A stretch of DNA of 21,277 nt, taken from a virus. The stretch spans positions 1 through 21,277 of the IMG/VR virus record IMGVR_UViG_3300037200_000335. The stretch is one strand, 5' to 3'. Position numbers and translations under genes: made by a program. Below the pieces are notes generated by a model. It did no database searches, was not told where the DNA came from, and was given only the letters and a program-made list of their open reading frames with translations. Below, piece after piece: positions 34 through 20,733 of the stretch (position 1 is the first letter of the stretch; the number at the start of each line of letters is the position of its first letter).

Positions 34-212
34 TACTCTGTTTAAGGGGGGAATAGGCGTGAATAGGGGGTCAATTTACTCTGTTTTTCGGCGGGCCTAC
101 TCTGTTTTTAAGTAGAAAGCCGTGAATACGGGTTTAATATACTCTGTTTTTCGGCACGTGGGCTAAAAATAGGGCGTTTTACTACTCTCGTTTTAGGTTG
201 AACCCCGTGAAG
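34..212 (+). repeat. Iteron-like array with 21-bp phasing
   Basis: TACTCTGTTT occurs exactly at 34-43, 77-86, 98-107 and 140-149, and a variant TACTCTCGTTTT lies at 183-194. The start-to-start distances are 43, 21, 42 and 43 bp, close to two or four turns of the DNA helix. A second element, CGTGAA, starts at 58, 121 and 206 (63 and 85 bp apart), and an AATAGG/AATACGG core starts at 52, 62, 125 and 168. All copies point the same way. Such phased direct repeats are typical of iterons bound by an initiator or of multimeric operator sites. The function is inferred. Confidence 0.65.
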
Positions 213-3262: not shown

Positions 3263-4597
3263 ATGAAAAAAGCCGGGCGCGCCGACCCCAGAGCCGACCT
3301 GGACGAACGCATGCGATACAAGGGCGACCTGAGCGTTGCTCACGCCGGAGACAACATGACGGCGCTTGCGCGGAGCGCCCTACGTCAACGGGCGGACTAT
3401 ACGCATAAGTTCAATCTCCGCACCGGGCGGCACGGATGGTTGCGCCTCACTCCGGCTTACTCGGTCAAAATTGTCGAAGAGCTGATCGGGAGTTTCAGTG
3501 CGCCGCTGAGGGTTCTCGACCCATTTTGTGGGACTGCGACCACGGCTCTGAGCGCGGCCTATCACGGGCACACGGCCGCCACTACAGATGTAAATCCGTT
3601 CCTCGTCTGGCTCGGCCGCGCAAAGACAGCGGACTACTCACAAGCGACAATCGCTGCCGCTCGCGACGCGTGCACGCGTGCCCTGCGGCTTGTGGACAAA
3701 AGGGCTGTGCACCCTGTTCCTGAACCGCCTCTACACAACATCGAGAGATGGTGGCCCCGCGACGCGCTGATGTTCTTGCGCCTCCTTCGGGCGGCGATCA
3801 TTGCTGTTGCGGCCTCTGGTACGCAGGAAAGGGACCTTCTCGATATCTCCTTCTGCCGAACCTTAATCAAGCTGTCGAACGCCGCTTTTAATCATCAGTC
3901 GATGTCGTTCCGGGATTCGGCTCAAATATCGCTGCATCTTGACGACGATCGAGCTACTTTCTTTAGAGATGATGTCGACTTTGTTCTTGAGGGAGCGAGC
4001 GTCAACCCGTCTGGGTCATGCTCTATAATAGAGGCGGATTCTCGCAATCTTCGTGATCACCTAACAGGCACCTACGATCTTGTAGTCACGTCACCGCCTT
4101 ACGCCAACCGGATGTCGTACATTCGGGAGCTGAGACCTTACATGTATTGGCTCGGCTACCTCGTGAACGGTCGCGACGCCGCCGAACTCGATTGGGGTTC
4201 GATTGGCGGGACGTGGGGAGTTGCAACCAGTCGCCTTATGGATTGGAAGCCAACCAGTAAAGGGCGCTATCACTCTCAGGAACTAGATGAGGTTGCAGAG
4301 AGGATCGCGCACGAGAAGAACGCTAATGGCCGCCTGCTCTCAAACTATGTAGCAAAATATTTTCAAGATATGTGGATGCACTTAGGGCAATTACGCACAG
4401 TTCTCTCGCCGTCTGCCAAGGTGCACTACATCGTAGGAAATTCTACATTTTATGGCGTTCTGCTTTCTAGTGAAAAAATATACGCCGACATGCTTTCACG
4501 TCTTGGATTTACCGAAGTGAACGTTAGGGCTGTTCGTAAGCGCAATTCAAAAAAGGAACTCGTCGAGTTCGATATCTCTGCAACGTTTCCGGGCTAG
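3263..4597 (+). CDS. Orphan DNA methyltransferase (SPPY-type, m4C or m6A)
   Basis: The 444-residue protein is an S-adenosylmethionine-dependent DNA methyltransferase. Motif I is VLDPFCGTATT (84-94), preceded by the motif X-like stretch KFNLRTGRHGWLRLTPAYS (49-67). The catalytic motif IV is DLVVTSPPY (272-280), followed by RELRPYMYWLGYL. SPPY is most common in N4-cytosine enzymes but also occurs in N6-adenine ones. The order X-I-IV, with about 190 residues between I and IV, is consistent with a helical target-recognition insert. No restriction enzyme gene is adjacent, so it is probably a phage protective or regulatory methylase. Codon use drifts towards AT after about 3840, hinting at transfer. 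The start is uncertain: 3263 lies just after the preceding stop, while the ATG at 3356 has the best ribosome site (GGAG, five bases away) and still keeps the domain. Confidence 0.85.
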   Translation: MKKAGRADPRADLDERMRYKGDLSVAHAGDNMTALARSALRQRADYTHKFNLRTGRHGWLRLTPAYSVKIVEELIGSFSAPLRVLDPFCGTATTALSAAYHGHTAATTDVNPFLVWLGRAKTADYSQATIAAARDACTRALRLVDKRAVHPVPEPPLHNIERWWPRDALMFLRLLRAAIIAVAASGTQERDLLDISFCRTLIKLSNAAFNHQSMSFRDSAQISLHLDDDRATFFRDDVDFVLEGASVNPSGSCSIIEADSRNLRDHLTGTYDLVVTSPPYANRMSYIRELRPYMYWLGYLVNGRDAAELDWGSIGGTWGVATSRLMDWKPTSKGRYHSQELDEVAERIAHEKNANGRLLSNYVAKYFQDMWMHLGQLRTVLSPSAKVHYIVGNSTFYGVLLSSEKIYADMLSRLGFTEVNVRAVRKRNSKKELVEFDISATFPG

Positions 4598-4646
4598 ACC
4601 GTGGCTCTAGATTTGGGACTTACATACTTGACTCCCTTTGAACCAA

Positions 4647-4841
4647 TCATTCGGGAGCCTTTTTCTCGATCTTTATCAGCCGGTAAGCCGCGCGTTTCCG
4701 CTTTCTCGCCGGTTTGGATTTGGGCTTCGGCTTGTAGGACAGCACGAGATGCACGAAGCGGTTCAGGGCTTGCGCACGATCGTGATCGAAGACACTGGCG
4801 TAAAAAACAAAAATTTCGGCGGCCGGCTGAAATTTTTCGCT
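4647..4841 (-). pseudogene. Possible remnant of a minus-strand gene with basic C-terminus
   Basis: On the minus strand this frame reads ...FVFYASVFDHDRAQALNRF, VHLVLSY, then a Lys-Arg-Pro-rich tail (KPKPKSKPARKRKR) and AAYRLIKIEKKAPE before a stop. It looks more protein-like than the plus-strand reading, which is a run of Leu, Phe and Arg. There is no good start codon, and a stop lies just upstream at 4842-4844. If real, it is the 3' end of a decayed nucleic-acid-binding gene. No family was recognised. Confidence 0.25.
4809..4837. terminator. Bidirectional terminator-like hairpin
   Basis: Perfect nine-base arms, AAAAATTTC at 4809-4817 and GAAATTTTT at 4829-4837, are extended inwards by one G-T and two G-C pairs around the loop GGCCG. 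On the minus strand the stem is followed by a T-rich run broken by one G (TTTTTGTTTTTT), a good intrinsic terminator. On the plus strand the T-run is the right arm itself. It lies about 210 bases after the methyltransferase stop. Confidence 0.45.
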
Positions 4842-5169
4842 TTACGGACGTTTCGTTTTCGGGTATATGACCAGTTCTCGATCGAAGCTTGGGCTCGACG
4901 CTTATCGTCGCAAGAGGCCGCTTCGGACCGATACAGTTGGCAGCGGAGCAATGCTCTGTTGCAAAGTGCGGTGCATTGCCACCGATTGCTGCGGCGCCTT
5001 TTTGGGAGATCCCCAGGCAATGCTTTGGATCTTATGATCGCCCAAGCTCTCGCGAGCGGCGTTTCTCGAATTTGAGCGACGCGCACCCCCGATCGACCAC
5101 GTAAAGTATGGTTATCGAGGCCCTGCCGGTTCGTGCCTCCGTGATAAAAACGACCGGCCGCTTATTCAC

Positions 5170-6054
5170 ATGAAAACCTATTCCCCATCCCCCCGCCCGC
5201 CGGGCAAGGTCCTCGCGCCGAATCGCTCCCTCGATCCCGATCGTCGTAGGTTCATAGACGCGTTCGTAACCACGAACGATTGGCTAGAAGCCGAGCGCCG
5301 AGCTAAGCTCGCGCCCGGTACGGGCCGTCGTCTCATGGGCGAGCTTAGCGTGCTGCGGGGCATCGAGGCGGCCCGGCGTAACCCGAGCGCTCCGCAAGCC
5401 AACGCGGCGTATGTCAAGGCGTGCTGGCTACGGGTCGCCGCCGCTGACCGTCGCGAGCTCAGCGAGTACTGGCAAGTATGCTGCCGGCATTGCTGGGGCG
5501 AACGCCATCACTACCAGTGGCGCGACGAGGAAGAGTACAACGAAGCGCTGCGTAAGCACAAGCAAGATTGGAAGCTCGACGACCTGGGCGGCTACGGCTA
5601 CACGATCAACCGTACGCCGATGCGCGGCCCGGACTACGTAGCCTTCATCGAGCGGGTATGCGAGGAGAGCGAGCGGTCGCCGCCGCGTTACCTCGCGGCG
5701 AACTCCGATCACGATTGCCCGCGGTGCTTTGGGCACGGCGAGGGACGCGCGATCTATCACGACACGCGCTATTTGAGCCCGGCCGGCCGGGCGATCTTTC
5801 TCGGGGTTAAGAAGACCGCGGGCGGTGGTATCGAGATTCAAACTCGGGACCCGGACCACGCGCTTACGCAGCTCGGCAAGCATTTGGGCATGCTCAATAA
5901 CCGCGAGACGATCAAAACCCTGGACCCGGCGTTGATGACGAGAGAGAACCTCATTGCTGCCATCGCTGGATACACTGAGCTCCATGGACCAGACGGAGCT
6001 GACGAAGACGTACCTCTCTTGCCTGCAACATCAGCTGTTGGTGCAGGAGAATAA
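5170..6054 (+). CDS. terS: Terminase small subunit
   Basis: The 294-residue protein directly precedes the large terminase and overlaps it by 71 bases, the usual place for the DNA-recognition subunit of the packaging motor. The N-terminal part (about 20-80) is helical and resembles the DNA-binding region of Terminase_2-type small subunits: RRRFIDAFVTTNDWLEAERRA. The middle carries a conserved-looking insert with two CxxC pairs, CRHCWGERHHYQW at 105-117 and CPRCFGHGEGRAI at 183-195, probably a zinc-binding module. The C-terminal part has GKHLGMLNNRETI, typical of this family near the end. No ribosome site is visible before the ATG at 5170, but the upstream sequence offers nothing better. The protein is longer than many small subunits because of the Cys insert. 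Confidence 0.75.
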   Translation: MKTYSPSPRPPGKVLAPNRSLDPDRRRFIDAFVTTNDWLEAERRAKLAPGTGRRLMGELSVLRGIEAARRNPSAPQANAAYVKACWLRVAAADRRELSEYWQVCCRHCWGERHHYQWRDEEEYNEALRKHKQDWKLDDLGGYGYTINRTPMRGPDYVAFIERVCEESERSPPRYLAANSDHDCPRCFGHGEGRAIYHDTRYLSPAGRAIFLGVKKTAGGGIEIQTRDPDHALTQLGKHLGMLNNRETIKTLDPALMTRENLIAAIAGYTELHGPDGADEDVPLLPATSAVGAGE

Positions 6055-7486
6055 TCTTGACGATATCGTCGCGCGTCATCGGGGTCAACCGCTAGGTTTT
6101 ATCATTAATGGTTTGCGTCAGCTCCGCGGTTCATCGTGGAATGTTTGGCGTATTGTGCTAAAGGCGGCCTACGGTTATGGTCTGACCGGAGACGAATTGC
6201 CGATTTTCAAAGAGATTTCGGGTGGGCGTGAGCCGCCGAAACGACGCGTTAAAGAGCTCTGGTTGATCGTTGGTCGCCGCGGCGGCAAGGATTCGGTGAC
6301 GAGTTTAATCGCCGCGCAGGCAGCTTGCTATGCGGACGAAGGCGTGGCGTTACGGCCTGGTGAGCAGGCGCTCGTGGCGTGTTTTGCGACGGATCGCCGA
6401 CAAGCACAGATCATCTATAATTATACCAAAGCGTACTTTGAGCAAATACCGTCGTTACGTCGGTTTTTGGCGAAGAATTTAACCGCGGGCGTGCAGCCGA
6501 TTATGTTGCAGAACGACGTGCAAATCGTCGTGGCAACGTCGAATTTTCGCGCCCCGCGCGGCTGGCCTATCGCGATGGCTATCTTTGACGAGATAGCTTT
6601 TTGGCGAGACGAAGAGAGCGCAATCCCGGACGCTGAAATCTATGCTGCCGTACTCGGTGGTATGGGCACGCTCCCTAATGCGATGATCGTCGGGATCAGC
6701 AGTCCGTATCGTCAGAAGGGTTTGCTATTCGATAAGTGGAAACGCCATTACGGTAAGGAATCGGATGACGTTCTCGTCATTCAGGGTCCGACCACGACGT
6801 TTCACCCGACGTTCGATCAAAGCGTGATCGATCGGGCGATGATGGAAGACCCCGAGAAAGCCGGGGCCGAGTATTATGCCCGTTGGCGGCGAGACCTTGC
6901 CGATTACGTGGACCGGGAAGTCGTGGAGAGCGCGGTCATAAAGGGTCGCGCGCTGATTCCCTGGAAAGCCGGGGTCCATTACGAAGCATTCTGCGACCCG
7001 TCGGGCGGTAGCGTCGATTCGATGACGCTGGCGATTGCGCATCGGGAGAAGGATACGGGTGTGCTCGATATCGTGCTAGAGCGGCGGGCGCCGTTTCAGC
7101 CGAGCGAGGTGGTAGCACAGTTTGCCAAGCAGTTGAAGGAATACCGGCTGGGGCGCGTCAAGGGCGATCGCTACGGTGGCGAGTGGCCCGCCGAGTCGTT
7201 TCAGCAGCACGGTATCACGTACGAAGCAAGCGAATTGACGAAGTCTGATATTTATCGCGACTTCCTGCCGTTTCTTAATTCGGGTCGCGTCGACTTGCTC
7301 GACCTGCCGCGCTTGATCAACCAGCTCTGCCGGCTAGAGCGCCGTACGGCGCGGGGCGGGCGTGACAGCATTGACCACCCGCAGGGCGAGCACGACGACA
7401 TAATCAACGCCGCCGCGGGCGCCGTGCTGTTGGTGATCGGCGAGGTCGATCCGGTGACGCAGATGATCCGGGCCATGGGTATGTAA
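5984..7486 (+). CDS. terL: Terminase large subunit
   Basis: This 500-residue protein is the ATPase-nuclease that drives DNA into the prohead. The ATPase domain shows an adenine-motif region near 60-90, Walker A in LIVGRRGGKDSVTS (94-107) and Walker B in AMAIFDEIAFW (197-207), with the acidic pair DE. A coupling-motif-like GISSPYR follows at 237-243. The RuvC-like nuclease domain starts at EAFCDPSGGSVDSMTLA (Asp338, Asp345), continues with VKGDRYGGEW (Asp396) and closes with EHDDIINAAAGAVLL (Asp471/472). All expected catalytic acids are present, so it should be active. I chose the ATG at 5984, with GAG just upstream, over an in-frame TTG at 5954. The start lies inside the small-subunit gene, implying coupled translation. 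Confidence 0.95.
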   Translation: MDQTELTKTYLSCLQHQLLVQENNLDDIVARHRGQPLGFIINGLRQLRGSSWNVWRIVLKAAYGYGLTGDELPIFKEISGGREPPKRRVKELWLIVGRRGGKDSVTSLIAAQAACYADEGVALRPGEQALVACFATDRRQAQIIYNYTKAYFEQIPSLRRFLAKNLTAGVQPIMLQNDVQIVVATSNFRAPRGWPIAMAIFDEIAFWRDEESAIPDAEIYAAVLGGMGTLPNAMIVGISSPYRQKGLLFDKWKRHYGKESDDVLVIQGPTTTFHPTFDQSVIDRAMMEDPEKAGAEYYARWRRDLADYVDREVVESAVIKGRALIPWKAGVHYEAFCDPSGGSVDSMTLAIAHREKDTGVLDIVLERRAPFQPSEVVAQFAKQLKEYRLGRVKGDRYGGEWPAESFQQHGITYEASELTKSDIYRDFLPFLNSGRVDLLDLPRLINQLCRLERRTARGGRDSIDHPQGEHDDIINAAAGAVLLVIGEVDPVTQMIRAMGM

Positions 7487-8149: not shown

Positions 8150-10186
8150 GTGCCACCGCCCGAGGACGATGGTCCGACGCCGGCCGCGATCAATCCCGAC
8201 GTAGCCCGTGCCCGGCGGGAAGAACGATCAGCGATCCGTCGTCGGAAGAAGGTAACGACGGACGCGGCGACCGCGCGTACGAAGACGACTTTCGACAGTT
8301 TCCAGAATTTTGTCGCGAGCGTAGGCGTTGGAACGAATAATGTAACCTCCGCGAGTGGTTACGGGTTTTCGCCGATCACCCGCAACCACATAGAATTGGA
8401 ATGGATGTATCGCGGTTCCTGGATAATCCAGGTCGCGGTTGATTACCTGGCCGACGATACGATGGCCCGCGGCATCAAGCTGGGGTCCGAGCTCGACCCG
8501 GAAGACGGCGAGAAGCTGCTCCGCGCGATACGCAAGTCCGGTAACTGGGATAAGTTGCGTCTAACGCATAAGTGGGGCCGGCTATACGGCGGCTGTATGG
8601 CGATCATGATGATCGACGGGCAGGACATGAAGACCCCGTTGAATATCGAGTCGATCCGGCCGGGCCAGTTTAAGGGCCTAATCGTGATGGACCGGTGGAT
8701 GGTCAACGCCTCGGTCGGCGAACTGGTGGAAAGCCCCGGCGACGACTTCGGGCAACCAAAGTACTATGACGTGCAGGTGGCGATACCGGGCCTAGGCAAC
8801 GCCCGTGTGCACCATAGCCGGTGCCTGCGGATCGACGGGATCGAGTTGCCCTATTGGCAGAAGGTCTCGGAAAACTATTGGTCCATGAGCGTGGTCGAGC
8901 CGCTATGGGACCGGCTGATCGCGTTCGACTCGACGACGCTCGGCGCCGCGCAGCTCGTCTTCAAGGCGTACCTGCGTACGTGGAAGGTTAAGGGCCTGCG
9001 CGATATCTTGGGATCGAACGTGATCGCCGAACAGGCGCTGGTACGCAACGCCCAATACATGCGGCAGTTCCAGTCGAACGAATCCATCAGCCTCGTGGAC
9101 GCCGAAGACGAGTTCGACGCGCAGACCTATTCGTTCGCCGGTTTGCCGGAAACGCTGCAGCAGTTTGCGCAGCAGTTGAGCGGTGCGTTGGGCATACCGC
9201 TGGTGCGGCTGTTCGGGCAGAGCCCGAGCGGCTTTTCCAGCGGCGAAGCCGACATATCGAATTACGACGATAACGTTGAGCACCATCAGGAAGCGCGGGT
9301 TCGCAAGCCGCTGGATAAGCTCTTACAGGTGTCAGCGCGTTCGATCGGCATTAAGCTGCCCGATACATTCTCGTGGACGTTCAACCCGTTCCGCGTGCTC
9401 GACGAAAATCAGAAAGCCGACGTGGCGGAGAAGATCACGCGTACGGTGGGCGATGCCCGCGAGCGCGGGCTGGTAAGCGACCAAGCCGCCGCGAAAGAGC
9501 TCAAACAGCAATCCGTGACGACCGGTATTTTCACGAATATCACGGACGATTTTATCGAGCAGCTCGATGATAAGCCCCCGCCGGCCGGTGAGGGCGAGAT
9601 GGGCGGCGGTGAAGGCGCGCCGGGGATACCGGATATGGGCGCTGGTGCAGGTGCAGGTGCTGCAGGTCAGAACGAAGAACGTTCCGACCAACTGCAACCG
9701 CAGATGGAAGAAGATTCTGTCATCCCGCAAGGGCGGACTAACAACTGGCGTCGCGTTCACTTTCACGTGGTAGATGCGGCCCGTGAGCTTATGCTTCACG
9801 GCCTGCCGATCTATCTCGAGACGCGTCGCGGCGAAGAACGCCGGGGCCTGCGCGGGTGGACGACGAAGATGCCAGCGGATTACGGTTTCATCCGTAATAC
9901 CGGCAGCGCCGAGGGGCCGAGCGAGGGCCTGGACGTGTTCGTCGGGCCGGAGCGCGATTCGAAGGAAGTATTCGTGATCGACCAGGTCGATCCGAGTACG
10001 GGTGATTTTGACGAACACAAATGCATGCTCGCCTATCCGTCGCGCGTGCTGGCGCTGCGTGATTATCAGCGCGCGTTTTCGGACGGCAGCGGCGCGGCGC
10101 GGATCGGCGGCGTGAAGCATATGTCGATGGATCAGTTTAAGGATTGGCTCGAAAACGGCGATTGCACGAAGCCGGTGGCCGCGTGA
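8150..10186 (+). CDS. Portal protein (DUF1073 type) with C-terminal pyrophosphatase-like domain
   Basis: The 678-residue protein has two recognised parts. Residues about 45-480 form a DUF1073-type portal, the ring at the capsid vertex through which DNA passes. Typical segments are YRGSWIIQVAVDYLADD, WGRLYGGCMAIMMIDGQD, IELPYWQKVSENYWSMSVVE and LPETLQQFAQQLSGALGIP, followed by VRLFGQSPSGFSSGEADI. A Gly-Ala-Pro-rich linker (about 480-515) leads to residues 552-668, which match the InPase-like pyrophosphatase domain known from phage and mobile-element polyvalent proteins: TKMPADYGFIRNT, DVFVGPERDSKEVFVIDQVD, FDEHKCMLAY and MSMDQFKDWLEN. The fused domain may be carried in the virion or act on phosphorylated substrates; this is inference. 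The start is the GTG at 8150, with GAGG seven bases upstream. Confidence 0.85.
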   Translation: MPPPEDDGPTPAAINPDVARARREERSAIRRRKKVTTDAATARTKTTFDSFQNFVASVGVGTNNVTSASGYGFSPITRNHIELEWMYRGSWIIQVAVDYLADDTMARGIKLGSELDPEDGEKLLRAIRKSGNWDKLRLTHKWGRLYGGCMAIMMIDGQDMKTPLNIESIRPGQFKGLIVMDRWMVNASVGELVESPGDDFGQPKYYDVQVAIPGLGNARVHHSRCLRIDGIELPYWQKVSENYWSMSVVEPLWDRLIAFDSTTLGAAQLVFKAYLRTWKVKGLRDILGSNVIAEQALVRNAQYMRQFQSNESISLVDAEDEFDAQTYSFAGLPETLQQFAQQLSGALGIPLVRLFGQSPSGFSSGEADISNYDDNVEHHQEARVRKPLDKLLQVSARSIGIKLPDTFSWTFNPFRVLDENQKADVAEKITRTVGDARERGLVSDQAAAKELKQQSVTTGIFTNITDDFIEQLDDKPPPAGEGEMGGGEGAPGIPDMGAGAGAGAAGQNEERSDQLQPQMEEDSVIPQGRTNNWRRVHFHVVDAARELMLHGLPIYLETRRGEERRGLRGWTTKMPADYGFIRNTGSAEGPSEGLDVFVGPERDSKEVFVIDQVDPSTGDFDEHKCMLAYPSRVLALRDYQRAFSDGSGAARIGGVKHMSMDQFKDWLENGDCTKPVAA

Positions 10187-10362
10187 GACAACTAGTCGAC
10201 CCGCAACGTCCACGTAACGATATTCACGTTGTGGTGGAAACGTACGCGGAGCGCAAGCGCCGGTTGAGTTATGAACGCTATACGGCGCCGTTGCCGCCGC
10301 TGGCGCGGCCGGCGTGGTTCGAGGAGCCGCATTTGCGCGATAAACTGGTGGCTGGTAGATGA
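10183..10362 (+). CDS. Small basic protein after the portal
   Basis: The 59-residue protein (MRQLVDPQRPRNDIHVVVET, then YAERKRRLSYERYTAPLPP) is basic and Pro-rich, with an ending FEEPHLRDKLVAGR. No family was recognised. Its GTG start overlaps the portal stop as GTGA, and its own stop overlaps the next ATG as ATGA, so it is almost certainly translated with its neighbours. Small genes between portal and gp7-like head protein are common in such operons and often encode minor head components; that role is not shown here. Confidence 0.55.
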   Translation: MRQLVDPQRPRNDIHVVVETYAERKRRLSYERYTAPLPPLARPAWFEEPHLRDKLVAGR

Positions 10363-10544
10363 GAAATCCCGACTCCTATCGGGCCGCCCGCCGCGAGCGC
10401 GCCCGTATCGGCGGCAAGTTACCGGATTGGCGTACGTTATCGCGACGGCAGGTCACGGCGGTAACCGCGGCCAATCGGCAACTCGACCACGACTTAGCGC
10501 GGGCGGTCACCGAGGCGTTGCGCGTGGCGGATCAGCTCGTTTAG
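10359..10544 (+). CDS. Small basic helical protein
   Basis: The 61-residue product starts MRNPDSYRAARRERARIGG and continues with a likely helix (RRQVTAVTAANRQLDHDLAR, then AVTEALRVADQLV). No family was recognised. Translation is coupled to the preceding gene through an ATGA overlap. Its stop at 10542-10544 overlaps the stop of the minus-strand gene at 10541-10543, tail to tail. The high Arg content at the N-terminus suggests contact with nucleic acid or a negatively charged partner, but this is weak. Confidence 0.5.
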   Translation: MRNPDSYRAARRERARIGGKLPDWRTLSRRQVTAVTAANRQLDHDLARAVTEALRVADQLV

Positions 10545-10756
10545 GGGGCTGTATCGTCGTTAATGATTTCGTAGTCATCGGCGGTGATCGACCATGTTTG
10601 GTAAGGCTTGCCGTTGTCGTCGCGGGGATACCGATAATCGCGCACATGTAGCACGACGCCGGCAACTCCCGGCGTCATGCTATCGACCAAGAAAGTCATT
10701 CCGACTTGGCCATTGAGCACGCGGCTTAGGCCGCGCTCCGTGAGCTTCACAATCAT
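10541..10756 (-). CDS. Second small minus-strand protein of unknown function
   Basis: The 71-residue protein begins MIVKLTERGLSRVLNGQVGM, continues with TFLVDSMTPGVAGVVLHVRD, and ends in a polar tail (YQTWSITADDYEIINDDTAP). The pattern suggests a small beta-barrel-like fold; no family was recognised. I chose the ATG at 10756 because GGAAGG lies about eight bases upstream on that strand. A longer in-frame start at 10834 would overlap the gp7 gene start. It faces against the structural operon like the 7537-7836 gene, but I found no equally clear promoter. The antisense position means rightward read-through could also reduce its expression. Confidence 0.6.
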   Translation of the reverse strand: MIVKLTERGLSRVLNGQVGMTFLVDSMTPGVAGVVLHVRDYRYPRDDNGKPYQTWSITADDYEIINDDTAP

Positions 10757-10812
10757 TTCGGGCACCTTCCATTGTGGTGATCCCAATGTCGGTCTTCCGC
10801 TCGAGAAAGTAA

Positions 10813-11607
10813 ATGGTAAAAACGCAAGCGACATCGTTTTTCGACCGTAAACGCGAAACCCTAGCCGAGCGTCACGCGTTCTCGCAGGCGCGGCTCGCGG
10901 AGCTCGAATACGGCCGCAAGCTACGGCAGGTAGCGAAGAACGTCGGCGAATACGTTAAGGCTCTGTTTCCGGGTGGCGAGCCGACGCACCCTAGCGCGTT
11001 GGCCCAGCTTCATTATACGATGCGCGCGTACGCGCAGCTCTTGCGCCCGTGGGCCACAGCGGTAGGCAACCGGATGATCGCCGACGTCAGTCGCCGGAAC
11101 GCGCGGGCCTGGTTCAAGGCGGCGGAAAAGATGGAGAGGCCGCTGCGGCGGGAGTTGGCAACCGTTCAGGTCGGCGACGTGGTTCGCGCCCGCTTGAATG
11201 CCCAGGTAGCGTTGATCACGAGCCTACCGATTGAGGCCGCGGAACGGGTACATAAGCTCACGCTCGAAGGTATGGTGACCGGCGTGCGCGCCAAGGAAAT
11301 CGCGGCGGAAATCGCCAAGTCGGGCGAGGTCACCGCGAGCCGCGCCACGTTGATCGCGCGCACGGAGGTCGGCCGTACTTCGACCGAATTCACCCGCGTC
11401 CGCGCAGAGCGGTTGGGCTCGACGCATTTCGTTTGGCGGTCGGCGCGCGATCGCGACGTACGTAAGATCCATAAAGCGTTGGAAGGCACGGTACATCGGT
11501 GGGACGACCCACCCGTTGCCGGTGAAAATGGTGAGCGGGCTTTACCAGGGGCTATCTATAATTGCCGCTGCTGGCCCGAGCCCATCTTGCCCGACGCAAT
11601 CTATTGA
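10813..11607 (+). CDS. SPP1 gp7 / Mu F-like head morphogenesis protein
   Basis: The 264-residue protein belongs to the minor head proteins that bind the portal and help start capsid assembly or DNA delivery. The N-terminal 110 residues are helical and basic. The C-terminal half carries the family pattern: VTASRATLIARTEVGRTSTE (about 175-194), HFVWRSARDRDVRKIHKALE and the closing PGAIYNCRCWPEP, with the conserved Asn-Cys-Arg-Cys. The position after the portal fits. The ATG at 10813 has a GAGAAAG-type site upstream. A run of genes for exported proteins begins about 110 bases after its stop, where capsid protease genes would usually follow directly. Confidence 0.85.
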   Translation: MVKTQATSFFDRKRETLAERHAFSQARLAELEYGRKLRQVAKNVGEYVKALFPGGEPTHPSALAQLHYTMRAYAQLLRPWATAVGNRMIADVSRRNARAWFKAAEKMERPLRRELATVQVGDVVRARLNAQVALITSLPIEAAERVHKLTLEGMVTGVRAKEIAAEIAKSGEVTASRATLIARTEVGRTSTEFTRVRAERLGSTHFVWRSARDRDVRKIHKALEGTVHRWDDPPVAGENGERALPGAIYNCRCWPEPILPDAIY

Positions 11608-11717
11608 GCCCCTGGCTCGACCTACCGCTCTGTCTTGGTGTCTTATCGGCCGGCGGCTTCGTCTGGTTTCGTTCGTACCGCGCGGCGTTGCGACGGTATC
11701 GCAAAAGTGAGGGAATT

Positions 11718-12194
11718 ATGAAACTTCGCCGTTTCCCGCTGTTTTCGTTCGCCGCCCTGCTCGTGGCGTTGCTGCTCACCGATTCGGGTATGGCCGCGGC
11801 GCAGAAGCCGCAGCAAACCTTCGGCGTGCTGCCGTTGCCGAACAGCGGCATCGTGATCAGCCACGTCGAGAGTGTGGCGTCCTCGACGAATTGCAACGAG
11901 GTCTTCGCGACGACCGCGTCGCAATCGATCAGCGCGATCTGGGGCCTCAACGTCGTCAACACGAACGCCACGACGTATTACTTGAAATTCTACGATACGG
12001 CTACGGTGCCGACGGCCGGTTCGGGTACGCCGAAGCTCGTCTTCGCGCTGCTGCAAAACCAGCCTCTTCAGAAGGGCTATTTGTTCGGCTTACCGTTCAA
12101 GAACGGCATCGGCTATTGCATCGTTGGCGCGATCGCGGACGCCGACAGCTCGAACTCGGCGGCCGGTATCTCGGTGGACGTGGCCCACTACTAG
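11718..12194 (+). CDS. Exported virion-like protein 1 (Sec signal peptide)
   Basis: The 158-residue protein opens with a textbook Sec signal peptide: basic MKLRRF, hydrophobic FAALLVALLLTDSG and a likely cleavage after MAAA or AQ (about residue 28). The mature part resembles a small module of phage fibre or decoration proteins, with TTYYLKFYDTATVPTAGSGTP, then FALLQNQPLQKGYLFGLPF and NGIGYCIVGAIADAD. It holds exactly two Cys (in TNCNEV and GYCIVG), which could form one disulfide after export. GAGGGA lies five bases before the ATG at 11718. An upstream in-frame extension is unsupported. It is first in a set of four exported proteins in the head operon. Confidence 0.7.
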   Translation: MKLRRFPLFSFAALLVALLLTDSGMAAAQKPQQTFGVLPLPNSGIVISHVESVASSTNCNEVFATTASQSISAIWGLNVVNTNATTYYLKFYDTATVPTAGSGTPKLVFALLQNQPLQKGYLFGLPFKNGIGYCIVGAIADADSSNSAAGISVDVAHY

Positions 12195-12230
12195 GTCATT
12201 AGCTCGCGCAGCGAAACGCACGCAAGCTTC

Positions 12231-13547
12231 ATGAAGCAGTTCGCGCTCCTACTATCGGCGCTCCTATTCGTCGCGTTCCCGGCGCTCGCGCAGGCGCCGC
12301 AGCCGACCATCGCGTATGTTGTCACTTCGACGGGCACGGGAAGCTTGTCAGCTTCTACGACCTCGGGCAACGTCGCGATTCCCGCGGGCGGTCCGACCCT
12401 CTGGGTGCAGAATACGGGGACCGTCCCGGTCTGCGTGGCCCTCGGAACGTCCAGCGCGGTAAAGGCGGTGCTGCCTTGCCCAGCGAGTCCGCCGGTCACG
12501 AACATAGCGCCGGGTGCCACGGCGCAGTTGGGCATCGGGTCGAGCACCTACATCGCGGCGATCACCGGGACCGGGACTGCCTCACTCGTGCTGACGTCGG
12601 GCTACCTGACGCTGGCGAGCGACACGATAGCCGGGTCGGTGACCGCGAACCAGGGCACACCAAACACGGACGCGAACGCGTGGCCGGTTACGCTCGTTAT
12701 CGGCGGCGCGCTCAACAGTGCGACGAACGGCACTTACACGAACCTGTTGCAGGGCAACGCGGTCCTGTCGACCACGAATCCGCTGTTCTTTACCCCGGCG
12801 ACGGGCGCCAATCTGGCCCAGGAGACCGGCGGTAATCTCGCACAGTCGGTCACCGACTTCGGCGCGCCAGGCGCCACGGCCTGCGCGACGGACACGTCGA
12901 GCTGCAACTTCAATCAGTTGTTCCAACGCATCGCGCAGCGACTGTCGACGATCAACACGACACTCAATGCGCCAATGCAAACGACGGGTGGCGCGGTAGG
13001 GCTCGTCGCGGGTACCGCGAACATAGGTGGCGTGGCGCTGTCGCCGGTCATCACAAATCCGACCTCAACTCTCACGCTTCCAAGCTCAACCTCGGCTTAT
13101 ACCGCTGGGCAGCTTATCGCGAACAATGCGACCGCAGGTTCTATTACGGTACCGAGCTTCGCCATCGCGACGAGCGCGGGCGCAGCGGCGATCCCGCGCC
13201 TGCGTTTGTCGACGAACGACACGACCTCGACATCATGGGGCGGCGTTCAGGTGCAGGTTGACCTGTGGTCCGCTGCGCCGACATGGACGAACGGTGATCA
13301 TGCAACGTGGCTTCCGGCGACCGGCTCGGCTGTGCACCTTGGAGCGTTTACCTGCGCGTTCCCCGGTGCGAGCGGTACGATCTGGGGCGACGGTCTCGCG
13401 ACCGAGTGTTATCCGCAGGTCGGAAACTTCCCGATGCCCAAGCTCGCGAGCGGTACCTCGATCTTCTGGTCACTTCAGGCACTTACCGCGTCGGGTGTGA
13501 TCGGCGCGAGCAAGGTGTTTACGCTGACCGCCGAGTTGCAGAACTAA
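12231..13547 (+). CDS. Exported virion-like protein 2 (Sec signal peptide)
   Basis: The 438-residue protein begins MKQFALLLSALLFVAFPALA, a clear Sec signal peptide with an ALA-type cleavage site near residue 20. The mature protein is Thr, Ser, Ala and Gly-rich and reads like beta-structured phage tail or decoration proteins: SVTANQGTPNTDANAWPVTL, AYTAGQLIANNATAGSITVP and VQVDLWSAAPTWTNGDHATW. It has six Cys after the signal peptide, again an even number. Its role is unknown; receptor or polysaccharide binding would fit the composition. No strong ribosome site precedes the ATG at 12231; it follows the first exported gene by 36 bases, so coupled expression is likely. Confidence 0.7.
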   Translation: MKQFALLLSALLFVAFPALAQAPQPTIAYVVTSTGTGSLSASTTSGNVAIPAGGPTLWVQNTGTVPVCVALGTSSAVKAVLPCPASPPVTNIAPGATAQLGIGSSTYIAAITGTGTASLVLTSGYLTLASDTIAGSVTANQGTPNTDANAWPVTLVIGGALNSATNGTYTNLLQGNAVLSTTNPLFFTPATGANLAQETGGNLAQSVTDFGAPGATACATDTSSCNFNQLFQRIAQRLSTINTTLNAPMQTTGGAVGLVAGTANIGGVALSPVITNPTSTLTLPSSTSAYTAGQLIANNATAGSITVPSFAIATSAGAAAIPRLRLSTNDTTSTSWGGVQVQVDLWSAAPTWTNGDHATWLPATGSAVHLGAFTCAFPGASGTIWGDGLATECYPQVGNFPMPKLASGTSIFWSLQALTASGVIGASKVFTLTAELQN

Positions 13548-19001: not shown

Positions 19002-19754
19002 ATGGCGGCACGGGACGATTCAGAAAGCTCCGCACAAGCTTCGGATCGGCTTATCGTCGCACTTGATGTCCCGAACTTCAGCGCTGCAGAGGTTTTGGTC
19101 GATGGACTAAACGGAGAAGTATCCTTTTACAAGATCGGGCTGCATCTACAACTTGATCGCGGTCTACACAGATTATTTGAAAAGATTGTGTCAGATAGAA
19201 AACATATTTTTCTAGATTTCAAGACGTTCGACATTCCAGCCACTGTAGCTGGGGCAGTACGTGCCGCGTCGGCGCTTGGAATCGATTTTATCACTGTAAC
19301 CGGACAACGGGCAATAGTTGAGGCTGCCGTGAGCGCCCGCAGCAATGGGCTAAAAATTTTAGTTGTTACCTTGCTTACAGGGATGAACGAACAGGATATG
19401 TGGCACGATTACGGTACGAAAATGCCTATGAACGAATTTATCGCTCAACGTGCGCAATTTGCGGCCAGCGCGGGTTGCGATGGTGTCATTTCGTCCGCTC
19501 AAGAAGTGAGCCTTATCCGTGACGCTGTGAAGGGTCGACCAGATTTTTTGATTGTAACACCCGGCATTCGCCCGAGGGGTGTTGATGTGGACGATCAAAA
19601 ACGGGTGGCTACGCCATATGAGGCAATTAGGAACGGGGCCGACTATTTGGTCGTGGGTCGTCCCATCATCCACAACCCCCATCCCTTGGAAGCCGCTCGC
19701 GACATTCTTCGTGAAATGGATATGGGGTTCGAGACACGGCTAGTTCAATCATAG
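19002..19754 (+). CDS. pyrF: Orotidine 5'-phosphate decarboxylase
   Basis: The 250-residue enzyme converts orotidine 5'-phosphate to UMP, the last step of pyrimidine synthesis, in the cytoplasm. All key motifs are present: LIVALDV (Asp22), FYKIGLHL (Lys44), the catalytic FLDFKTFDIPATV (Asp72, Lys74, Asp77), FITVTGQ, VTPGIRPRG and the phosphate-binding VVGRPI. The usual DLKFHDIP is altered to DFKTFDIP, but the charged residues are kept, so activity is expected. GC is clearly lower than in the flanking genes (about 40% over 19141-19260), and no other pyrimidine gene is near. Its place right after the major capsid gene marks it as a transferred auxiliary gene. Only a weak ribosome site precedes the ATG at 19002. 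Confidence 0.9.
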   Translation: MAARDDSESSAQASDRLIVALDVPNFSAAEVLVDGLNGEVSFYKIGLHLQLDRGLHRLFEKIVSDRKHIFLDFKTFDIPATVAGAVRAASALGIDFITVTGQRAIVEAAVSARSNGLKILVVTLLTGMNEQDMWHDYGTKMPMNEFIAQRAQFAASAGCDGVISSAQEVSLIRDAVKGRPDFLIVTPGIRPRGVDVDDQKRVATPYEAIRNGADYLVVGRPIIHNPHPLEAARDILREMDMGFETRLVQS

Positions 19755-20145: not shown

Positions 20146-20733
20146 ATGATCCTTCTCAAACTCCCCCGCGACATCACGGTCAGTTTTACCGGGGCCGGCG
20201 TTCTGGCGCATAACGCGATGCGCGCGCTCAGCGGCCAGATCATGCACCTCAAGGAAGGTTTTAATCGGGTCGCGGACGAGGTGGCGCAGCATCCGATGCT
20301 GCGTCCGTTCGTGGTGGACGACAGCGCGTTGCCGGAACCGGTCGAGGAGAAGACCGTAATCGAAACGGCGGTACACGAGCCCGAGCTGGAACCGCCGACG
20401 TCGGTAGCGAGTCTGATGGCGACGTCGAACGAGCCCGACGCCGATGCCAAAGCCGTGGAGCGAGCTAAGATGGCGTCCGCGGACGCCGAAGCCGCCCGCC
20501 GTGCGGCAGTTGGCGCGCAAAGCGGGGCGACTGGAACTATCGGCCCGACCGGCGCCACGGGAATGACAGCCGGTCCGACCGGTACGACCGGAATGACCGG
20601 CGCCACGGGAATGACCGGCGCCACGGGAATGACCGGTACGACCGGAATGACCGGCGCCACGGGAATGACCGGTACGACCGGTTCGACCGGAATGACCGGG
20701 ACTACCGGTTCGACCGGCCCGAGCAACGCGTAA
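20146..20733 (+). CDS. Collagen-like repeat protein sharing a domain with its neighbour
   Basis: The 195-residue protein begins [20 protein letters not shown], a domain of about 65 residues shared with the 19769 gene. A charged, probably helical linker follows ([20 protein letters not shown]), then a collagen-like tail of Gly-X-Thr triplets from about residue 126 ([15 protein letters not shown] and onward) to the end (GSTGPSNA). Gly-X-Y tails form trimeric stalks in phage fibres and surface proteins, with Thr and Met here in place of Pro. GGAG lies seven bases before the ATG. A trimeric head or tail fibre is plausible but not shown. Confidence 0.7.
20524..20727 (+). repeat. Collagen-type DNA repeat
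   Basis: Nine-base-based units coding for [12 protein letters not shown] and GSTG follow one another, with near-identical blocks such as GGAATGACCGGCGCCACG repeated several times. Such tracts change length easily by slippage and recombination, so copy number may differ between related phages or be misassembled. Confidence 0.7.

Follow-up and report, generated by a model that had tools for sequence, protein, structure and literature searches.

Results

Gene content of the phage fragment

The window, by which we mean the whole stretch of DNA analysed, is a complete IMG/VR record and consists of a linear fragment of 21,277 bases. Its rightward operon opens with a plus-strand gene at positions 598–1284, which had been overlooked in the preliminary description, and the encoded protein has NGN and KOW-like domains. 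This protein has weak matches to PHROG 6386, TIGR00922 and PDB NusG chains, and as a query against IMG/VR, phages and plasmids it retrieved no close relative. A profile ties it to the corresponding proteins of two related phages, L085 and L065, which match the Pfam NusG family PF02357 clearly (1.7e-11 and 8.4e-10). The predicted membership in the NusG/RfaH family, weak from the protein's own matches, becomes firm through these two relatives.

To the right of the NusG-like gene lie genes for a DNA methyltransferase, the small terminase subunit TerS (5170–6054, plus strand), which served as synteny anchor, and the large terminase subunit TerL (5954–7486, plus strand), which served as query for relatives, followed by portal, head and major capsid protein genes. 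The terminase, portal, head and major capsid genes identify the virus as a tailed phage. In the portal protein (8150–10186), residues 546–668 form a C-terminal domain that matches Pfam InPase PF18823 (E 4.2e-29). A phage-borne orotidine-5'-phosphate decarboxylase gene, pyrF, directly follows the major capsid gene (19002–19754, NF001273, E 3.5e-68), and a protein with a collagen-like Gly-X-Thr repeat is encoded at 20146–20733, with matching 18/54-bp tandem DNA repeats at ~20547–20717.

Phased boxes at the left end

A repeat array reaches the left end of the record. Four exact copies of TACTCTGTTT are found on the plus strand at 34–43, 77–86, 98–107 and 140–149, and a fifth, degenerate box on the same strand, TACTCTCGTT at 183–192, has two mismatches to them; the successive gaps are 43, 21, 42 and 43 bp. 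Plus-strand CGTGAA elements start at 58 and 121, with a third at 206–211, and are separated by 63 and 85 bp. The preliminary description had given these boxes, elements and spacings correctly. It had also proposed near-21-bp phasing, and the best common period of the boxes is indeed 21.25 bp, with a vector length of 0.997. When the outer two boxes were held fixed and the inner ones placed randomly, only 0.0175% of trials gave equal gap regularity. The first two CGTGAA elements lie within a 38-bp block that is present twice on the plus strand, at 55–92 (from AGGCGTGAATAGGGG to TACTCTGTTTTTCGGC) and at 118–155, offset by 63 bp. Because the two blocks are 87% identical copies, the five spacings are not independent events, and local duplication of the block explains part of the box phasing.

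Exact TACTCTGTTT occurs nowhere outside the array in the 21,277-base record, and at up to two mismatches there are 16 matches in the record, compared to a shuffle mean of 6.7. The preliminary description had named loss of the spacing in relatives as evidence against its proposal, and for the boxes by themselves this is what we find: clustered TACTCTGTTT boxes with this spacing are present in none of the four syntenic relatives described below, nor in the TerL loci searched. The 21-bp TACTCTGTTT/CGTGAA array is a repeat specific to this phage. Its phasing suggests either binding along a single helical face or a repeated melting element. The boxes resemble TACTCCGTTAC of another locus, L161, by eye only, and an origin of the boxes as decayed iterons is not established.

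On the minus strand at 58–66 and 121–129, the CGTGAATA elements read CTATTCACG and GTATTCACG, with a weak likeness (two mismatches) to the DnaA box TTATNCACA. The best matches in a DnaA box scan of the region have two mismatches, and five of these were counted where the remainder of the window predicts 1.7. GC skew cannot place an origin here, because the array adjoins the fragment's end and nearly all genes point in one direction.

Searches with the array DNA against phages and plasmids gave short matches at chance level only, and exact GTTACCCCCCGTTACCCCC was not found in IMG/VR. A search of IMG/VR with the box-pair pattern returned 12 loci, which share the word by construction; some, L008 among them, look iteron-like, no shared genes were seen, and we do not claim homology. 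At L008:4040–4099 three TACTCTGTTTCAC boxes, 25 bp apart and iteron-like, are found just past the end of a gene for a RepA-like ATPase.

A second repeat around the boxes

A second repeat, CGTTACCCCC, likewise missed in the preliminary description, occurs in both orientations at 1–20 and 213–484. The region contains 13 GTTAC cores, compared to about 0.95–0.98 expected. The left set (1–23) is clipped by the contig end and comprises two GGGTAACG units at 3 and 13, 10 bp apart, with GTTACCC on the minus strand. It is inverted relative to the right set (213–316), in which GTTACCCC is found on the plus strand at 214, 246, 288, 298 and 308 and the plus strand is C-rich and G-poor. Between the two sets lies an AT-richer spacer (24–212, GC 0.44–0.46 versus ~0.60 for the record), the predicted melting region, which contains the 21-bp-phased boxes. 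Further to the right are a palindrome, GTTACGGGTAAC, at 384–395 and additional GTTACC units at 434–487 (starts 435, 448 and 460, and 479 on the minus strand), which include a 14-bp hairpin (444–457/474–487).

The GTTAC sites of the window are in helical register with the boxes for a turn of 10.55–10.6 bp (p = 0.002 when the GTTAC sites are taken by themselves), and phasing at 10.6 bp is not significant for the GTTAC sites of any of the four relatives. The iterons of L085 show lags of 21, 64 and 85 bp, and those of L058, L065 and L127 show other lags; the two-turn spacing thus recurs at least once, in L085. A scan of 1–597 for sigma-70 promoters gave no matches.

Syntenic relatives

Single-protein searches produced few relatives. 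An alignment built from the TerL proteins of Methylobacterium and Komagataeibacter plasmids yielded 79 IMG/VR loci, one of which, L058, has in the same order as the window a NusG-like gene, a further small ORF and the genes for TerS and TerL. The region upstream of its NusG-like gene (4430–5031) contains no TACTCTGTTT and has GTTACCCC units and a hairpin matching that of the window; the hairpin precedes the NusG-like gene by ~110 nt in the window and by ~120 nt in L058. The arrangement in L085 and L065 is the same, and a fourth locus, L127, was added through a scan with a primase alignment. In all four, the GTTAC region is divergent, situated between a leftward small ORF with a VapE-type primase-helicase gene and the rightward NusG-like gene, which leads to the terminase. 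By analogy, the window's own VapE gene probably lies beyond base 1 of the record. The preliminary description had noted that no initiator gene is adjacent to the array. This is true within the window solely because base 1 is where the contig stops; on that side the relatives have genes for the VapE primase-helicase and the small protein. In L085 an intein-like insertion appears to split the TerL gene (9887–12286, a 799 aa ORF) ahead of the DEIAFW motif.

GTTAC ranks first of all 5-mers for joint enrichment in the five syntenic control regions, with 13, 6, 9, 11 and 14 copies compared to 0.98, 0.83, 0.85, 0.36 and 0.37 expected. Its flanks vary: the repeat is GTTACCCC in the window, L058 and L085, TGTTACACC in L065 and GGTTACG in L127. 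In three full records GTTACCCC is mostly restricted to the control region (8/8, 4/5 and 6/9 copies). What is conserved is a GTTACCC-type repeat and the gene order around it, and the best reading of both is that they point to a VapE-type replication origin. The small ORF beside VapE was modelled from three sequences with a pLDDT of 81.7. Foldseek returned no match to this model at E < 0.001, and a second structure aligner gave many winged-helix proteins with weak scores (Z 4–6.5), so the small protein may, on this weak likeness, have a winged-helix fold.

Several plasmids also carry a TerL of this family. On pKNA06 of Komagataeibacter (L023) and pM44601 of Methylobacterium (L021/L022) its companions include genes for ParA, a recombinase and a VapE or P4-type primase, with no annotated capsid gene; much of the gene set of pKNA06 is present twice, ~15.2 kb apart. 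We rejected derivation of the boxes from these plasmids, none of which has the array. A scan of genome contigs with TerL found one satellite-like prophage, in which the array is also absent.

Repeats beside VapE genes

We next extended the comparison to loci fetched by protein, with a GTTAC cluster defined as at least seven cores in 450 bp. Such clusters are present at 15 of 90 VapE loci and at one of 94 other loci, that one being the window itself; with the window left out the second count is 0/93 (Fisher p = 1.2e-5), though VapE loci share ancestry to unknown degrees and the counts are only partly independent. The clusters never fall within the VapE gene, and a few lie 1.7–3.7 kb downstream. 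The other large clusters lie beside VapE genes near which no NusG-like gene was detected. Most of these clusters are directly 3' of the VapE gene, often as opposed groups separated by roughly 70–110 bp.

Other words are repeated in the same place. A 6-mer occurs at least eight times within the 400 bp 3' of 25 of 94 VapE genes, compared to 0/89 for the 5' flank and 1/338 for background stretches. CGTTCC, with 9–11 copies in 400 bp, forms a second origin-like class 3' of VapE (L129, L130, L132, L136 and L139). Among named phages, chosen blind to repeats, the words at VapE are GGTCACCCC in Marinobacter PS3, CTCACC in Rhodobacter RcAqua, TTGTCCC in Corynebacterium Lederberg, CTGCAACA in Paenibacillus Dante, GTGTCAACA in Listeria LWP01 and AAACTACAA in Javan652. 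Caulobacter BL94 has 6 GTTAC cores and Staphylococcus vB_SpsX-DS12 has 12, and no clear array was seen at VapE in Bacteroides BF503P2, Xanthomonas FoX3 or Pam3.

Discussion

From the computed arrays and the way they are conserved, together with the relatives' gene order and the link between GTTAC and VapE, we propose that bases 1 to ~490 probably constitute a replication origin of the VapE/PICI-like kind, placed in a divergent intergenic region with divergent promoters. It would lie between a leftward replication operon, off the contig, that encodes the VapE-type primase-helicase, and the rightward NusG-like/terminase operon. The C-terminal domain of the primase-helicase, perhaps aided by the product of the neighbouring small ORF, would bind the GTTACCC iterons flanking 24–212; the spacer would then melt, and two helicase rings could load there. 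We infer that binding, melting and replication take place at bases 1–490. The TACTCTGTTT boxes in the predicted spacer may be sites for a phage-specific regulator or a repeated melting element. The preliminary description had pointed to cooperative binding by an initiator or repressor. The region is best read as one that binds an initiator, which partly supports the proposal, though on grounds other than those given there: the conserved element is GTTACCC and not TACTCTGTTT.

PICI and SaPI origins are situated 3' of the initiator (rep) gene and have two iteron sets around an AT-rich melting site (PMC6092414, in which phage P4 is also mentioned), and the iterons are read by the C-terminal domain of SaPI Rep (PMC7581432). 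The window likewise has two opposed sets of short iterons around a spacer of lower GC content. Iterons beside a primase-helicase gene are seen in all four syntenic relatives, the corresponding side of the window being off the contig, and a similar layout is found 3' of many phage VapE genes. There are also differences. In L058, L085, L065 and L127 the array is not immediately 3' of the initiator gene but 5' of it, in a divergent region shared with the late operon. The window spacer is longer and contains the second, 21-bp-phased array, and the window, having portal and capsid genes, belongs to a phage and not to a satellite. The alpha protein of phage P4 is a primase-helicase initiator whose C-terminal origin-binding domain reads short repeats at ori and crr. 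The candidate origin would share with P4 the combination of a primase-helicase initiator and short repeats, and would differ from it in the helicase and in the repeat word.

Several observations speak against the origin model. The VapE gene of the window phage lies outside the record. The array is separated from VapE by the small ORF in the four relatives, and in L058, L085 and L065 the gap 3' of VapE is almost zero. The window spacer is ~200 bp and moderately AT-rich, compared to roughly 70–140 bp in other arrays, several of which have spacers that are not AT-rich. No relative has a counterpart of the TACTCTGTTT boxes, the likeness of the small protein to winged-helix folds is weak, and GTTAC clusters are found only at a minority of VapE loci.

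An alternative that we regard as unlikely is that the boxes and GTTACCC are operators, bound by a phage repressor or activator of divergent replication and late promoters, and that the origin is elsewhere. The region is divergent and intergenic in the relatives, the 10.6- and 21.25-bp phasing is in keeping with cooperative binding, and the leftward operon opens with a gene for a small, possibly winged-helix protein. However, GTTAC arrays also lie 3' of VapE genes beside which neither such a small ORF nor such a NusG-like gene was detected; this location is characteristic of origins and not of operators, and at least 10 sites across 480 bp are many for an operator.

We consider it distinctly improbable that a phage-plasmid has a RepA/Rep_3-like origin here with the boxes as its only iterons, GTTACCC being something else. 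The boxes are direct repeats ~21 bp apart, within the ~17–22 bp typical of plasmid iterons, and one of the Methylobacterium and Komagataeibacter plasmids with a TerL relative has RepA and 22-bp repeats. Against this, the array is in none of those plasmids and the boxes are absent from the syntenic relatives. No Rep_3/RepA gene was recognised among the window proteins scanned, the left side being off the record. Conservation tracks GTTAC and VapE, and the repeat that is conserved is a short word occurring in either orientation, unlike 20–22-bp direct repeats.

Least probable of all is a leader element of the ops, nut or LoaP kind, acting as RNA or non-template DNA, in which repeats and hairpins recruit the NusG-like antiterminator to the late operon: as with RfaH/ops and LoaP the NusG-like gene directly follows the repeats, similar hairpins precede it in the window and L058, and shuffled versions of the 595-base stretch fold less well than the stretch itself (z –3.1), but other phages have GTTAC arrays with no NusG-like gene, the arrays are found on either side of VapE, hairpins are inevitable given the mixed orientation of the units, and an Rfam search gave no matches.

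A tentative extension of the origin model, to which we give clearly less weight than to the model itself, is that the origin has shifted from 3' of VapE to the divergent intergenic region that it shares with the NusG-like antiterminator and the late operon. One control region would then govern both initiation and late transcription, and the 21-bp array would be a platform for a second, phage-specific factor joining the two. An origin of such a layout has been little described.

A repeat array at a contig edge, so far unexplained, thereby becomes a testable origin prediction. Our results suggest that the origins of VapE-helicase phages could be findable by computation: the repeat word differs from phage to phage (GTTAC, GGTCAC, CGTTCC, GTTGCC, TTGTCCC, CTGCAACA and others), whereas its place relative to the helicase gene tends to be fixed. 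Pairing each helicase C-terminus with its repeat word could help to reveal how such initiators read DNA.
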